DNA of 41,627 nt. It comes from Gemmatimonadota bacterium. GTDB taxonomy: Bacteria; Latescibacterota; UBA2968. A program made the position numbers and the translations under genes. Below, piece after piece: positions 11,965-18,006 of the stretch. Positions within the stretch are counted from its first letter, which is position 1, and every line of letters begins with the position of its first letter. The stretch is from assembly GCA_009838845.1 (NCBI GenBank), contig VXRD01000030.1, forward strand, positions 1-41,627. Direction: 5' to 3'. The notes below the pieces were generated by a model. The model saw only the letters and a program-made list of their open reading frames with translations, was not told where the DNA came from and searched no databases.

Positions 11965-12447
11965 ATGGCACGAGGAGTCAACAAAGTCATTTTGATCGGC
12001 AATTCTGGCGCCGATCCCGAGCTTCGATACACGCCAGGAGGCACAGCCGTATCGAACTTCAGCATCGCCACCAACGAAAGCTGGACCGACAGCAGTGGTG
12101 AAAGACAAGAACGCACCGAATGGCACCGCATTGTGGTATGGGGCCGTTTGGCCGAAATCTGCAACCAGTATCTGCGCAAAGGCAGCAAAGTCTATATCGA
12201 AGGCAAGTTGCAAACGCGCAGTTGGGAAGGGCAAGACGGGCTAAAGCGCTACACCACCGAAGTGGTTGCCCGCGACATGCAAATGCTCGATGCCCGCGGC
12301 GAAATGGACGGTATGGACGGTAGCTATGGCGGTGGCGCGCCTCAGGGCGGAGGGCAGTCAAGACCGCAGTCAAACGATTCTGCATCGGACGACACGACCG
12401 CTTCAGATCCACCTCCTTATGCTGCAGACGACGACCTGCCATTTTAG
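11965..12447 (+). CDS. ssb: Single-stranded DNA-binding protein
   Basis: This 160-residue SSB has a classical OB fold in residues 1-110 ([50 protein letters not shown]). A glycine-, serine- and proline-rich linker follows, then the acidic tip DDDLPF. In the cell the OB fold coats single-stranded DNA, and the tip recruits repair and replication partners. GAGGAGG before the ATG sets the start. The gene is monocistronic, with its own near-consensus promoter and a strong terminator. It is transcribed away from the reductase operon. It is an ordinary housekeeping gene set among catabolic genes; rpsF and rpsR, its common neighbours, are absent here, so this may be one of several ssb copies. Confidence 0.97.
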
Positions 12448-12522: not shown

Positions 12523-12566
12523 CAAAACCTTCTGGATCGCGGCTCAAAATCATGCCGCGATGACAG
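12523..12566. repeat. Interspersed hairpin element, copy A
   Basis: An 8-pair perfect stem, ATCGCGGC (12536-12543) with GCCGCGAT (12554-12561), has a 10-base loop and is preceded by AAAACCTTCTGG. Two further copies lie at 14.5 and 18.0 kb. This copy differs from them at the third stem pair, C-G here and T-A there, so pairing is kept. It lies between the convergent ssb and creatininase genes. The function may be bidirectional termination or RNA stability, or it may be a REP-like mobile element. Confidence 0.75.
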
Positions 12567-12592
12567 CTTTTATACAATATTTAATTTTCTGA

Positions 12593-13339
12593 CTACTGAC
12601 CTCTTCCTTCCCGATAAATCTTCTGTATAGCCTCAACCAGAAAATCTTCGGCAACTTGAAAAATCTGCTCTCCCATCTCTGCCGTCGCAGGACGCGGATC
12701 TCCCAACCCTCCATGATCTGTATTCTGATCAAACCGCTTGTACAGACGCAGCCCTGGAATACTCTCCCGACGGCGCTGCCCATCCCTGTGTAACGCATCT
12801 GTCTTCACCAGATCGGGATCTATCGCCATAATCATAGCGGTCTCACACTCACCCGCATGCCCGGATCCCTTTGTCCCCAGCGACAAAGCCTCATTTATTT
12901 TTTTACTCGACGGTTCGGCATACGGCGTCGTCGTATAGAGATTGACATCTTCATGCCTCTCCATAACGCGCTGGCGCAAAACCGAAATATTTGGCTCATT
13001 GCCCCCGTGGCTATTAATGAGCAGAAACTGCGTAAAACCGTGTTCAATCATACAAGCGAGAACATCGTTCATAATCGCCAGATGCGTCTCGGACGACGCA
13101 GAAACCGTACCGGGATACTTCATATGATGCTGCGAATACCCCAGCCACATAACCGGGAGAATAAGCACATCCCGGGACAACCGCTTCTCAACGCGATTGA
13201 CCACCTCCTGAAGAATCATCGTATCGGTAAACACGGGCAAATGCAAACTGTGTTGTTCGAGCGAAGCCACGGGTATAATAACCACCAGATCCCGTGACAA
13301 AGCATCGACATCGGGAGAAGTCATATTGGCGAGAAACAT
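12593..13339 (-). CDS. Creatininase-family amidohydrolase
   Basis: This 248-residue protein belongs to the creatininase family of two-metal amidohydrolases. Metal ligands are visible: E28 and H30 in ASLEQH, D39 in FTD, H111 in INSHGGN and E164 in GHAGE. The family includes true creatininase, the riboflavin/F420 enzyme ArfB and the mycofactocin peptidase MftE, so the substrate is open. No mycofactocin genes are present. AAGGAG sits before the ATG. The C-terminus ends EGRGQ, and its last codons and stop (CAG TAG) lie in a copy of the TCAGTAG sequence that also forms the array near 18.0 kb. It is divergent from the PhyH gene at 13436, and the two may share a control region. Confidence 0.85.
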   Translation of the reverse strand: MFLANMTSPDVDALSRDLVVIIPVASLEQHSLHLPVFTDTMILQEVVNRVEKRLSRDVLILPVMWLGYSQHHMKYPGTVSASSETHLAIMNDVLACMIEHGFTQFLLINSHGGNEPNISVLRQRVMERHEDVNLYTTTPYAEPSSKKINEALSLGTKGSGHAGECETAMIMAIDPDLVKTDALHRDGQRRRESIPGLRLYKRFDQNTDHGGLGDPRPATAEMGEQIFQVAEDFLVEAIQKIYREGRGQ

Positions 13340-13380
13340 AAAAACTCCTTAAAAATGCGAATTAGAACATTAGGACAGCA

Positions 13381-13408
13381 TTGTTTATTTAAATTATTTT
13401 CGTATATT
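13381..13408 (+). promoter_or_regulatory. Candidate promoter of the PhyH gene
   Basis: TTGTTT (13381-13386) and TATATT (13403-13408) are 16 bases apart in the divergent gap, and the start codon follows 27 bases later. The -35 half is weak. Confidence 0.4.
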
Positions 13409-13435
13409 ACACAACAAAATATCCCGGAGGCATCT

Positions 13436-14422
13436 ATGGAAATAGAAAAAGCATTAAAACTCACTTATCAGGGCGAACCCCTGGGCCACTCGTCGGACGA
13501 CTTTGGCGGCTTACGCAAATCCAATGACGCGATAAATGATCGCGACGAACTCCACCGCCGAATGACAGAGAATGGCTACTTATTTCTCAAAAATTACCTG
13601 AACAAAGATGAAGTATTAGCCGCTCGCCAGGAAGTCATGGATCGGCTCATGGGCGCGGGTGTATTAGACGAACGCTATCCGGCAATCGACGGCATTGCAG
13701 CCTCAAAAAAGAAAATTGACGGACGCGCAACGGGATCGTTCATGCCCTTACTCGCGCGCAACAATCCCCCCCTGGACAAAGTAATCCACGAAGGCCCGAT
13801 CATGTCGTTTTTTGACTTCTTTTTAGACGGACCTGCGCGCTACTTTGACTACACCTGGTTTCGAGCCAAACAGCCCGGACTGCACACCGCCACCAATCCA
13901 CACTGCGACATCGTCTATATGGGCCGCGGAACAAAAAACCTCTACACCGCCTGGATACCCTATGGCGATGTACCCTCCTACATGGGCGGATTGATGCTGC
14001 TCGAAAACTCACACAAACTGCACGACCTGAAAGCGGGCTATGGATCAACAGACGTCGATCTATACTGCGAAAACAAAGACGATGCCCAGGAAATAGTAGA
14101 ACGCGCACGCGCCGAAGGGCGGAACTTGACCAATCAAGAGCGGGCTTCTATAAAGTGGAACTCGAGCGGATCGTATTCCTCTAATGCCATACCCACCCGC
14201 AAAGAACTGGGCGGACGCTGGCTGGTATCGGAATACGAAATGGGAGACCTGCTGATATTTTCGATGTACACACTCCACTCAAGCTCCGACAACTACTCCA
14301 AAGAGTACCGCATATCATCCGACACGCGATATCAACTCGCATCGGACCCCGTTGACGAACGCTGGATTGGCGACGACCCGCCCGCCCATGGCATTCGCGC
14401 CAAACGCGGGATGGTATGTTGA
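13436..14422 (+). CDS. Phytanoyl-CoA dioxygenase-family protein
   Basis: This 328-residue Fe(II)/2-oxoglutarate-dependent oxygenase belongs to the PhyH group. The iron triad is H156 and D158 in NPHCDIV, with H281 in MYTLHSSSDN. R292 or R298 would bind 2-oxoglutarate. GGAGG just upstream supports the ATG at 13436; the frame stays open further upstream to 13355, but that part is not convincing. Family members hydroxylate many small molecules and lipids, so no substrate is assigned. Sponge- and sediment-associated FCB lineages often carry many such genes. The stop codon is followed within two bases by an octamer repeat array. A second, quite different PhyH protein lies at 20305. Confidence 0.85.
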   Translation: MEIEKALKLTYQGEPLGHSSDDFGGLRKSNDAINDRDELHRRMTENGYLFLKNYLNKDEVLAARQEVMDRLMGAGVLDERYPAIDGIAASKKKIDGRATGSFMPLLARNNPPLDKVIHEGPIMSFFDFFLDGPARYFDYTWFRAKQPGLHTATNPHCDIVYMGRGTKNLYTAWIPYGDVPSYMGGLMLLENSHKLHDLKAGYGSTDVDLYCENKDDAQEIVERARAEGRNLTNQERASIKWNSSGSYSSNAIPTRKELGGRWLVSEYEMGDLLIFSMYTLHSSSDNYSKEYRISSDTRYQLASDPVDERWIGDDPPAHGIRAKRGMVC

Positions 14423-14423
14423 G

Positions 14424-14467
14424 CGAATCAACGAATCAACGAATCAGCGAATCAACGAATCAACGAA
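14424..14467 (+). repeat. Octamer tandem array, left of hairpin copy B
   Basis: Five and a half units of CGAATCAA (one unit ends in G) begin two bases after the PhyH stop codon. The reverse complement of the unit, TTGATTCG, opens the array on the other side of hairpin copy B. Confidence 0.9.
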
Positions 14468-14469
14468 CC

Positions 14470-14525
14470 CCGCCCTACCACCCAAAACCTCTGGATTGCG
14501 GCTAACACCCTGCCGCAATGACGAC
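14470..14525. repeat. Interspersed hairpin element, copy B
   Basis: The stem ATTGCGGC (14495-14502) pairs with GCCGCAAT (14512-14519) around a 9-base loop. The leader CCGCCCTACCACCCAAA and the tail TGACGAC are shared with copy C. It lies between the convergent PhyH and sulfatase genes and between two opposed octamer arrays. Confidence 0.85.
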
Positions 14526-14566
14526 ACTTTTGATTGGGTTGGTTGATATGTAAGGTTGATGATTTC

Positions 14567-14629
14567 TTGATTCGTCTATTCGTCTATTCGTCTATTCGTC
14601 TATTCGTCTATTCGTCTATTCGTCTATTC
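14567..14629 (+). repeat. Octamer tandem array, right of hairpin copy B
   Basis: One TTGATTCG unit is followed by about seven units of TCTATTCG. The array runs into the 3' end of the minus-strand sulfatase gene and encodes its last residues (NRRIDE) and TAG stop. Its first unit is the exact reverse complement of the left array unit. Confidence 0.9.
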
Positions 14630-16002
14630 ACCCATTCCCTGACCGCTTCAGAACCTGGATACACGGCGTCCGGCCCTTGCTGCTGAACCTGTTTCTCTCC
14701 CAACCACGCCTTCCAATCGCCGCACGCCTGGCTCACCCCGCGCCATGTATCCCCACACGCGCCCATCGCCTCCTGCAAAAGCCCATCCAACTCAGCAACC
14801 AATTTGGGATCTTCCCCCACCAGATTGCGTTCCTCGTAAGGATCGTTCTCCAGATCGAACAAAACCCAGGGCTCCTTCTCCAAACGCGCGTAATTATATC
14901 GCTCGGTTCGCACCCCGCGCCACCCGGGCCACACCGCAAAAGTGTGATGCATCGTCGTATAGGCATACGCCTGAGTACGCGCATTGGGCTGCCCCAGAAT
15001 CGCGCCCGAAAAATCTCCCCCATCCAGACCAGCCGGAACATCAACACCCGCCAACCCGCACAAAGTTGGGAAAATATCCGGTGTGCCAAACGGCATACTC
15101 AAGCTACAACCAGCCTCAACCTTGCCCGGCCACCGAACCAAAAACGGAACCTGCGTAGATTCTCGATAAGGCCATCGCTTGCCTCGCAAACCCTGGCTAC
15201 CCAGCATCTCGCCGTGATCAGATGAGTACATCACAATCGTATTATCCGCCTGCCCGCTCTCTTCCAGCGCGCGCATCAACCGCCCCCACTCAATATCCAG
15301 CCCCTCAGTCATCCCGTAATAATGCGCGTACCAATCGCTCACATCGCTGGCCCTATCACCTGATAGCTTTGACGTATTCGGATGCAAATTCAAATCCCGA
15401 TCCAGATAAGGCGCGACATAGGGATCCGGTGCTATAAGCGGCGGATGCGGCGGACCCCACGACATAAACAAACACCACGGTCCAGATCCCGCCCGATTTT
15501 TAATATACGCAATCGCCCTATCCGTCTCGATCTGAGGCCGATAAAAGCCACTACCCGCAACCGGGTCCCTACTATCCGTGGCATAAGCCCACTCGTAGTA
15601 ATTATGCGCATTATCACCCACATACCACTCATCGTCAAAACCCAGGCGCAACGGATCGCCCGCATCGACCTGAATCTCGCCCAAATGCCACTTGCCAATA
15701 TACCCGCATCTGTAACCATTCGCGCTAAGCGCCGTGCCAATACACGGATACACGCTCAAATCGGGATAAAACCGATTGGTCGTCACCCCCGTATGATGGC
15801 CGTATTTACCCGTCATCAACATCGCGCGATAAGGCGTACAAACAGGCGTACTCGAAACCGCTGCATCCAGACGCATCCCCTCAGCGGCAAACGCATCAAA
15901 TTGAGGCGTATTGAGATCCTCATCGCCATAATAGCACCCCATCGCAGATGCCCGCTGCTGATCTGAAAACACATACAATATATTTGGCCTATCATCGGAC
16001 AT
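14608..16002 (-). CDS. Type I sulfatase (formylglycine-dependent)
   Basis: This 464-residue sulfatase has the canonical motif C55-T-P-Y-R59 followed by MLMTGKYGHHTG, so C55 can become formylglycine. Other catalytic features are SDQQ (D14), GKWHLG (K104, H106), PPHPP (H186), SSDHGEMLG (D262, H263) and K275. There is no signal peptide, so it would act in the cytoplasm, unlike many polysaccharide sulfatases; choline sulfatase-like or monosaccharide substrates are possible. AAGGGGA precedes the ATG. The last six residues and stop codon are written in the octamer array, so the C-terminus may have been altered by repeat growth. The gene is divergent from the M14-like gene. A formylglycine-generating enzyme is not in the window. 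Confidence 0.9.
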   Translation of the reverse strand: MSDDRPNILYVFSDQQRASAMGCYYGDEDLNTPQFDAFAAEGMRLDAAVSSTPVCTPYRAMLMTGKYGHHTGVTTNRFYPDLSVYPCIGTALSANGYRCGYIGKWHLGEIQVDAGDPLRLGFDDEWYVGDNAHNYYEWAYATDSRDPVAGSGFYRPQIETDRAIAYIKNRAGSGPWCLFMSWGPPHPPLIAPDPYVAPYLDRDLNLHPNTSKLSGDRASDVSDWYAHYYGMTEGLDIEWGRLMRALEESGQADNTIVMYSSDHGEMLGSQGLRGKRWPYRESTQVPFLVRWPGKVEAGCSLSMPFGTPDIFPTLCGLAGVDVPAGLDGGDFSGAILGQPNARTQAYAYTTMHHTFAVWPGWRGVRTERYNYARLEKEPWVLFDLENDPYEERNLVGEDPKLVAELDGLLQEAMGACGDTWRGVSQACGDWKAWLGEKQVQQQGPDAVYPGSEAVREWVNRRIDE

Positions 16003-16061
16003 GGAAAATCCCCTTCCACTGGTAAATTTAGGAATTGATTAAAAACACTCGACACAATATA

Positions 16062-17309
16062 ATGCACACTCAGAGCAAGTCAAAGATTCGCGCACAACGA
16101 AAAAACCACCTCAATCTAAAAATGAAACTCAAAAACGGCGACATCATCATCGACGACAACTTTCCGTGCAGCAGTGCCGGAGAAATGCGAATAATAGAAT
16201 CTGGCATAAGCGAAATCGGATACAAAAAAGAAGAAATCCCGCAATGGTTCCAGTACCTGTTGGACGAACTATTCGACGGTGCAGGCGTACCCAAAGAATA
16301 CATGGCCCATGTGCGCGTGCGTCACCTCGGCAACCGCGCAAAACGGGTAATACTGCGATTCCTACTAAGCAAAAAAGGCGCAAACTACATGTACCCACCC
16401 TGGTGGATCTGGCGAGAAAACACAGGATGGGCGTGGGTACCATCTGAAAACACGGACTTTCACCTGGCAGAACACATCGATATATCCGTCCACATCCAAC
16501 CCGGAGAAACTATCCGCATCGCATCTGCCCCTTATGAAGACCCATCCGTCATATGCGAAAAAGCGCAACAACTATCCCAACAATACGACATCTGGACCTA
16601 CCGGGAAATCGGCCACTCTGCCCAGGGACGACCAATCTGCGTATTGGAAACCCAACCGCGCGACCTGACACTACTCGTCGATGCCACAATGCAATCGTGC
16701 GAACCCGTATCCTGGGGCATCCTGCATGTAGCCCACAGCTTAACCATCCCAACCGCACGCACACAGCGATTATTAGACCACGTACAATTCTGCCTCATGC
16801 CCATCACAAATCCCGACGGCGTTTGCGAAGGACGCAGCGTAACCAATGCCATGGGCGAAGTCCCAAAATTCGGAATTAACCACCTCGTAGAAGGCAAAAG
16901 CGCGCCCAGAGAAACCGCGGCACTGTGGCAGTACTTCCTCGAAAAAAAGCCAGATGCATCCATAGAAGTCCACGCCCACTTTACGCGACCGGATTTTACG
17001 CGAAGCATTGGCATGCACGACAAAGCATCCATGCCACACCATCTACGGGCAAAAGCGGAAATCCTCGAACAAACCATCTTCGAAAACTACCATGTCAAAC
17101 CATTAAAAAATCGAAAAGTACTCATCGACCCGCGACAACCCGAACACAACGTCTATGGCGACAAACACATCTGCGAACAAGCAGGCACAATCCGCACCTT
17201 TTTACAAGCAATCCCCGACAGCATTGACGCGCACAACGCCGACGTCAAAGAAATGGTAGAAACCGTCGCCCACGCGCTCATCAAATGGCAAAAATCTGGT
17301 ACATCGTAG
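16062..17309 (+). CDS. M14-like zinc carboxypeptidase family protein with altered metal site
   Basis: The protein has an N-terminal beta-rich domain like that before the M14 domain in cytosolic carboxypeptidases (about 120 residues, ending in a Pro-Tyr pair). An M14-type domain follows: YREIGHSAQGRPICVLE, MPITNPDGVCEG and SIEVHAH. In M14 enzymes the zinc ligands are HxxE and a later His. The aligned first motif here reads Q-S-C-E-P, so the first His appears to be Gln, while the Glu and the later His remain. It may be a low-activity or non-catalytic relative. The start is uncertain: a TTG at 16035, ATG at 16062 and ATG at 16122 all lack a good ribosome binding site. The 29-base gap to DUF1080 suggests one operon. 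Confidence 0.65.
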   Translation: MHTQSKSKIRAQRKNHLNLKMKLKNGDIIIDDNFPCSSAGEMRIIESGISEIGYKKEEIPQWFQYLLDELFDGAGVPKEYMAHVRVRHLGNRAKRVILRFLLSKKGANYMYPPWWIWRENTGWAWVPSENTDFHLAEHIDISVHIQPGETIRIASAPYEDPSVICEKAQQLSQQYDIWTYREIGHSAQGRPICVLETQPRDLTLLVDATMQSCEPVSWGILHVAHSLTIPTARTQRLLDHVQFCLMPITNPDGVCEGRSVTNAMGEVPKFGINHLVEGKSAPRETAALWQYFLEKKPDASIEVHAHFTRPDFTRSIGMHDKASMPHHLRAKAEILEQTIFENYHVKPLKNRKVLIDPRQPEHNVYGDKHICEQAGTIRTFLQAIPDSIDAHNADVKEMVETVAHALIKWQKSGTS

Positions 17310-17338
17310 AGGCATAACCTATTTATGGAGGAAAACCC

Positions 17339-17905
17339 ATGGCAACACACCTATCCCCAGAAGAACAAGCGGAGGGATTCACGCCCTTATTCAACGGCAC
17401 AGACCTGAACGACTGGAGAATTATTGGACCGGAAGAAGGTTGGGAAGTCCAAAACGGATTGATAGTATGCAATGGCGAAGGCAGAGGATGGATACGCCCC
17501 AAAGCTATGTACACAGACTTTGTACTGCGCCTGGACTATCGAAACAGCGCGGGCGGAAACAGCGGAATATTCCTGCGGACAAGCGAAGAAGGACGCCCCG
17601 CCTATCAAGGAATGGAAATACAAATTTACGACGTACCTCACGACCCACTCAACAATAAATCAAACGGCGCCATCTACGATGCGGTCGCCCCTACGTCAGA
17701 TCCGTCTCACCCGGCGGGGGAATGGAACTCGATTGAAGTATCCTGCCTGGGAACAATGGTAAACGTCATCATCAACGGACGCGAAGTCATATCCTGTGAC
17801 ACAAGCAAACACCCGGACCTCAAAGACCGCTTGAAAACCGGATACATCGGCCTTCAAAACCACCGCAGCCCCATTGATTTTCGCAATGTACGCATTAAGG
17901 TATAA
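17339..17905 (+). CDS. DUF1080 (3-keto-disaccharide hydrolase-like) protein
   Basis: This 188-residue protein is a single DUF1080 domain, a jelly-roll fold related to LamG/concanavalin lectins. Typical landmarks are PLFNGTDLNDWR, YTDFVLRLDYR, GGNSGIFLRTSEEG, GMEIQIYD, GEWNSIEVSC and the closing FRNVRIKV. Some members cleave 3-keto-glycosides and others may only bind sugars. There is no signal peptide, so it seems cytoplasmic. GGAGG precedes the ATG. It follows the M14-like gene closely. A related domain is fused to the sigma factor at 32442. The stop codon is followed at once by heptamer repeats of the form TCAGNNN. Confidence 0.9.
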   Translation: MATHLSPEEQAEGFTPLFNGTDLNDWRIIGPEEGWEVQNGLIVCNGEGRGWIRPKAMYTDFVLRLDYRNSAGGNSGIFLRTSEEGRPAYQGMEIQIYDVPHDPLNNKSNGAIYDAVAPTSDPSHPAGEWNSIEVSCLGTMVNVIINGREVISCDTSKHPDLKDRLKTGYIGLQNHRSPIDFRNVRIKV

Positions 17906-17907
17906 AA

Positions 17908-17940
17908 TCAGCCATCAGCTTTCAGTGGTCAGCTTTCAGT
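17908..17940 (+). repeat. Heptamer array TCAGNNN, left of hairpin copy C
   Basis: The units read TCAGCCA, TCAGCTT, TCAGTGG, TCAGCTT and TCAGT. The array begins two bases after the DUF1080 stop codon. The segment TCAGTGGTCAG is the exact reverse complement of CTGACCACTGA in the right array. Confidence 0.8.
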
Positions 17941-17943
17941 TCT

Positions 17944-18006
17944 CCGCCCTGCCACCCAAAGGCAAAACCTTCTGGATTGCGGCTAACATCATGCCGCAAT
18001 GACGAC
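17944..18006. repeat. Interspersed hairpin element, copy C
   Basis: The stem ATTGCGGC (17976-17983) pairs with GCCGCAAT (17993-18000). The 5' leader and 3' GACGAC tail match copy B, apart from a five-base GGCAA insertion. It lies between the convergent DUF1080 and aminotransferase genes and between two opposed heptamer arrays. Confidence 0.85.

Follow-up and report, generated by a model that had tools for sequence, protein, structure and literature searches.

The CGTC-tagged REPs form a superfamily that includes dRS3, RPE-4 and RPE-6 (Di Nocera et al. 2013, PMC3733652). Its members are recognized by a CGTC, TGTC or CCTC tag, an 8-9 bp stem with A-T at positions 1-2 and a CCA tail, and no transposase had been found for them in 2013 (PMC3733652). 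Among the GTAG-tagged REPs and REPINs, tandem REP arrays of P. fluorescens SBW25 have been described as all forward (~2 Mb) or all reverse (~4 Mb) (PMC3116915). Among mobile elements, IS608 and ISDra2 of the IS200/IS605 group both leave the lagging-strand template on excision and insert into it, their orientation tracks replication, and elements of this group are said to prefer regions of termination or fork arrest (PMC5371812).

The window, i.e. the whole stretch of 41,627 nucleotides that was analysed, contains exactly three matches to the pattern GGATYGCGGC-N6..14-GCCGCRATGA, at 12534-12563 (A), 14493-14521 (B) and 17974-18002 (C), where shuffled sequences predict none. The complete units are as follows.

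12524..12565, minus strand: REP copy A, TGTC-ATCGCGGC-(10-nt loop)-GCCGCGAT-CCAGAAGGTTTT
14484..14523, minus strand: REP copy B, CGTC-ATTGCGGC-(9-nt loop)-GCCGCAAT-CCAGAGGTTTT
17964..18004, minus strand: REP copy C, CGTC-ATTGCGGC-(9-nt loop)-GCCGCAAT-CCAGAAGGTTTT

Read along the window's minus strand, the unit is (C/T)GTC-AT(C/T)GCGGC-9/10-nt loop-GCCGC(G/A)AT-CCAGAAGGTTTT, and each copy combines an 8-bp stem with a loop of 9-10 nt. A preliminary description of this DNA had reported three copies with an eight-pair stem, a third pair that changes from C-G in A to T-A in the other two, and a common leader and tail. Stems and third pairs were recovered as described and the leader, AAAACC(T)TCTGGAT, is indeed common to all three; the tail TGACGAC holds for B and C only, copy A having TGACAGC. 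The conserved unit has sharp limits, the tag at one end and GGTTTTG at the other, and GTC stands immediately 5' of the stem in 73 of 73 aligned copies from the same genome, nearly always preceded by C or T. DNA folding of the three copies gives z values of -2.4 to -4.8, and the two strands are comparably stable (-11.0/-11.3, -9.2/-8.9 and -9.7/-9.6 kcal/mol for A, B and C). The hairpins match no Rfam family at gathering thresholds. Judged by sequence, they are copies of a genus-wide family, a long-loop variant of the CGTC-tagged REPs.

In the genome to which the window belongs (5.75 Mb in 172 contigs) the exact pattern occurs 119 times, 64 times in forward and 55 times in reverse orientation; read backwards, the same pattern has no match there. 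With this genome included, 10 of 11 genomes of the genus hold between 23 and 284 copies, the richest being G013 (284). The remaining one, G014, a closed genome of 5.66 Mb, has 0 copies by the exact pattern, as have four other genera of the family, and a looser pattern revealed no comparable family across the rest of the class. Copies are mostly intergenic (57 of 62 sampled from the same genome lie in gaps). Among 121 distinct copies of the genus, collected by a mismatch-tolerant scan that did not impose pairing at the third position, the first stem pair is A-T in 115 and the second T-A in 118. The third is C-G in 73, T-A in 37, T-G in 7, T-C in 3 and C-A in 1 (Fisher 2e-22 over the four C/T x G/A cells), and the covariation first noticed in the window is genuine, with an excess of covarying pairs throughout the genus. 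The switch between C-G and T-A has occurred repeatedly, because 16 different loops are found with both stem forms. Where the stem deviates, the usual result is a G.T pair on the CGTC strand (24 versus 7 of the opposite kind), which fits folding of that strand or C-to-T change on an exposed single-stranded template.

Decayed copies are nearly absent: by mismatches to the consensus, 60 copies of the same genome have 0, 8 have 1, 1 has 2 and 0 have 3, which suggests that they spread recently or were homogenised. Orthologous sites often carry the element in one species and lack it in another, or carry it in the opposite orientation, as in gap A of G013 and gap B of G009. Between species the stem at such sites stays constant while the loop varies (e.g. 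TCAACTACAT, TCAACTGCAT, TTTAAGCAT). These differences in presence and in loop show turnover, and the loop swaps under a constant stem look like conversion between copies or re-insertion. A clean empty site lacking the REP alone was not recovered, the intergenic differences being mosaics of several repeats.

The genes and other features around the three hairpins are listed below; a gene for an M14 peptidase is also among those flanking them.

11965..12447, plus strand: SSB, single-strand DNA-binding protein gene (ssb), PF00436
12464..12490, plus strand: intrinsic terminator in gap A, 3' of ssb, with a 12-bp stem and a T-run
12593..13339, minus strand: creatininase family gene, PF02633
13355..14422, plus strand: phytanoyl-CoA dioxygenase (PhyH) family gene, PF05721
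14422..14633, no strand assigned: extended module around copy B, with upstream CGAATCAA and downstream ATTCGTCT octamer arrays, inverted
14608..16002, minus strand: sulfatase gene, PF00884
17339..17905, plus strand: 3-keto-disaccharide hydrolase gene, PF06439
18026..19465, minus strand: class-III aminotransferase gene, PF00202

Within the window, REPs occupy three of the four convergent gaps that measure 44 bp or more and none of 16 other gaps, in agreement with the preliminary description, which had placed them in convergent gaps only and had proposed either that they end or separate opposing transcripts or that they are REP-like elements tolerated only there. For the genome at large, a home-made coding model (gene caller) was applied to 1.33 Mb and used to assign gap types. 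Outside the window this sample has 54 copies, of which 35 lie in tandem gaps, 9 in convergent and 10 in divergent ones, against 35.5, 5.2 and 13.3 expected from the number of gaps measuring 100 bp or more (P = 0.16; P varies from 0.05 to 0.7 with the minimum gap chosen). Copies are thus spread over essentially all gap types, specificity for convergent gaps is ruled out and the all-convergent placement in the window is a local coincidence; of the second proposal the REP nature stands and the restriction to convergent gaps falls.

The first proposal, an element that ends transcription or marks mRNA 3' ends between facing genes, draws on a mild convergent excess outside the window (among gaps of 100 bp or more, 9 of 31 occupied versus 37 of 293 others, P = 0.026) and on the very stable hairpin predicted for copy B with its octamer arms. 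The CGAATCAA array at 14422-14467 and the ATTCGTCT array at 14570-14633 would allow the module to fold as one long hairpin whose apex is the REP (RNA MFE -67 kcal/mol, z -5.2); both arms accompany 7 of 61 copies of the same genome. Similar octamer arrays recur across the genome, often at contig ends. The majority of copies, however, lie outside convergent gaps, and REP direction is independent of the genes. Moreover, in an intrinsic terminator the GC-rich stem runs straight into a U-run; in the REPs no T-run adjoins the stem, TTTT standing 8 nt past it. Among predicted terminator-like sites none contains a complete 8-bp REP stem, one match, 12567-12554, overlapping copy A partly. Gap A has a conserved terminator of its own, retained in the relatives G009 and G011, which have no REP there; with this separate terminator alongside, kept in relatives that lack copy A, copy A was ruled out as the terminator. 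A role in ending or separating opposing transcripts is therefore unsupported, and we consider a 3'-end function quite improbable.

The main result of this study is a replication-linked orientation of the family together with a gradient from the origin. Orientation was scored for copies with at most one mismatch at sites where |GC skew| exceeds 0.05, the skew being computed over flanks of up to 10 kb each; the strand statistics rest on the sequence retrieved around the copies. The CGTC strand is the G-rich strand for 57 of 62 scorable copies in the same genome and for 83 of 91 in G013. Close REP neighbours share one strand. Counts made with same-strand neighbours within 2 kb collapsed are 41 versus 5 (P = 4e-8) and 37 versus 8 (P = 2e-5), respectively, and those with one vote per stretch are 24 versus 3 and 17 versus 4. 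Copies opposing the skew, the one in gap B of G009 among them, amount to ~8-9% of those scorable and to 11-18% once collapsed. Other species in the genus supplied 14 more copies, of which 11 agree with the skew orientation, 2 disagree and 1 is undecided.

G013 is a closed relative with a single contig of 6.53 Mb. Going rightwards, REPs there are predominantly plus before ~318-340 kb and predominantly minus after it, and GC skew turns from negative to positive; dnaA lies near this switch, at 380 kb. Of the copies on the right arm 23 are plus and 121 minus; on the left arm 93 are plus and 42 minus, unlisted copies being counted there since they lie beyond the last listed place. The collapsed right-arm copies less than 0.75 Mb from the origin stand 48 to 2 in orientation, and density on this arm falls from 40-112/Mb near the origin to 9/Mb towards the terminus. 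Regions of mixed orientation farther from the origin coincide with patches of reversed skew. From ~1.28 to 2.45 Mb of this contig and beyond, GC skew is patchy and REP orientation partly flips alongside; the patchiness suggests large inversions. Near the origin, at ~772-800 kb, same-strand tandem REP arrays with a period of ~74-77 bp are found.

Base composition, i.e. an artefact of strong GC skew, was ruled out as the cause of this orientation, a strand-specific Markov model predicting only 22-45% of copies on the G-rich strand where ~90% are observed. Gene direction was likewise ruled out, as the CGTC strand in tandem gaps is the sense strand in 20 cases and the antisense strand in 18. The octamer tandem repeats of the same genomes, which are not REPs, showed no orientation. 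GTAG-tagged hairpins (GTAGGGGCGAGGCATGCCTCGCCC and kin) in these genomes have the same lean relative to GC skew (23 versus 4), which is weaker evidence, since the tag itself is G-rich; some of these hairpins share a strand with a CGTC tag and directly precede it on its 5' side. When CGTC REPs of other bacteria were placed on GC skew, 34 of 51 loci had the same direction, a weak trend (P = 0.02) in a set with many dimers. A literature search for replication-oriented REPs retrieved nothing direct, and one by sequence letters retrieved unrelated papers only.

A strong strand polarity that switches near the origin, a stem preserved by compensatory change and the scarcity of decayed copies would all be expected of a selected polar chromosome signal (cf. 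KOPS, Chi), read at the fork or during segregation, with misoriented copies being lost. Such a signal is nevertheless unlikely: G014 has 0 exact copies while other genomes of the genus vary from 23 to 284, REP sites differ between species, and REP density declines towards the terminus, the opposite of the KOPS trend. The oriented survivors could also reflect unbiased insertion followed by more frequent deletion of one of the two hairpin presentations at the fork, given that palindrome deletion is replication-dependent (cited in PMC3733652). The two strands, however, fold about equally (e.g. -11.0/-11.3 kcal/mol) and a strong asymmetry in deletion is therefore not expected, which makes this explanation very improbable.

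By GC skew the G-rich strand is taken to match the leading strand in sequence and so to serve as the lagging-strand template, which is single-stranded at the fork. The observed anatomy, copy number, orientation and origin gradient of the family are best explained by non-autonomous REPs propagated through this single-stranded template, an explanation that we regard as reasonably probable. Spread through single strands is proposed because the orientation tracks the lagging-strand template, as it does with IS608 and ISDra2. The REPs would fold as single-stranded DNA on that template and would there be copied or inserted, in an IS200/IS605-like manner, through a trans-acting enzyme or through the fork or repair machinery of the host. 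Once inserted they would be mostly neutral, any effects on the 3' ends of flanking transcripts being secondary. We infer the mobility, the single-strand intermediate and the enzyme in trans from the pattern that the copies have left.

Candidates for such an enzyme were sought among the transposases of the genus. Y1 transposase matches occur in 6 of 11 genomes, and in the same genome as the window there is a single open Y1 reading frame, of 142 aa, on contig C124. This IS200-type gene (within C124, 8506-11859) adjoins a CCCAAGTC...GACTTGGGG hairpin that, compared by eye, is unlike the REP hairpin. No Y1 gene was detected in G007, G011, G012, G013 and G014, the first four of which carry 76, 41, 23 and 284 REP copies, respectively. 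A search for Y2 (IS91) transposases gave no match, a negative that carries no weight because the control genomes likewise gave none. The REPs might be classical passengers of the IS200/IS605 element at C124, moved by it in trans, in keeping with the open frame, the Y1 matches in 6 of the 11 genomes and the lagging-strand-template orientation expected of such enzymes (PMC5371812). Both the abundance of REPs in four genomes where no Y1 was detected and the dissimilar hairpin at C124 argue against this, and we consider it distinctly unlikely.

Several of these observations also count against propagation through the lagging-strand template as formulated above: no enzyme was found, G013 being richest in copies with no detectable Y1 gene; the hairpin next to the C124 gene is unlike the REP; a minority of copies opposes the skew and other CGTC REPs show only a weak trend; a clean REP-only empty site was not recovered; and the REPs are origin-proximal, whereas IS200/IS605 elements are said to favour termination or fork-arrest regions. 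A possible variant, which we put forward tentatively, is that CGTC REPs spread without any Y1 transposase, via host fork or repair machinery or another ssDNA enzyme, and are homogenised by conversion. If true, it would explain the origin-proximal density, the fixed polarity, the few decayed copies and the loop swaps. Taken together, the orientation, its flip at the origin and the thinning towards the terminus point to a replication-coupled single-strand process for CGTC REPs, and a genus with two closed chromosomes, one with 284 exact copies and one with 0, offers a comparison ground for the missing enzyme.

With the CGTC superfamily the hairpins share an unpaired CGTC/TGTC tag at one end of the palindrome, an AT-initial 8-bp stem (ATYGCGGC/GCCGCRAT), an unpaired CCA tail, here extended to CCAGAAGGTTTT, and a dispersed, intergenic occurrence in high copy number with no linked transposase found; units of the general form CGTCATTGC...GCAATCCAG occur in many phyla. 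The groups CGTC-1 to CGTC-4 have loops of 4-5 nt (with exceptions, PMC3733652), and the present family was not filed under them because its loops measure 9-10 nt. Those groups are also mostly head-to-head dimers, whereas copies here are singletons or same-strand arrays, and the present family is strongly replication-oriented, a property for which a term search of the text of PMC3733652 found no discussion. The GTAG REPs and REPINs associated with a RAYT are likewise tagged, imperfect, intergenic palindromes. They are, however, defined by a GTAG tag together with a repeat-flanked RAYT (Y1) gene, while this family is CGTC-tagged and its copy-richest genome has no detected Y1 (RAYT-type) gene. 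Like IS608 and ISDra2, finally, the REPs are hairpin-bearing DNA whose orientation follows the lagging-strand template, as is typical of ssDNA elements. They differ from the IS200/IS605 elements, which are autonomous and encode their own TnpA, in being ~42-nt units for which no associated enzyme was found, and they are concentrated near the origin rather than in regions of termination or fork arrest.
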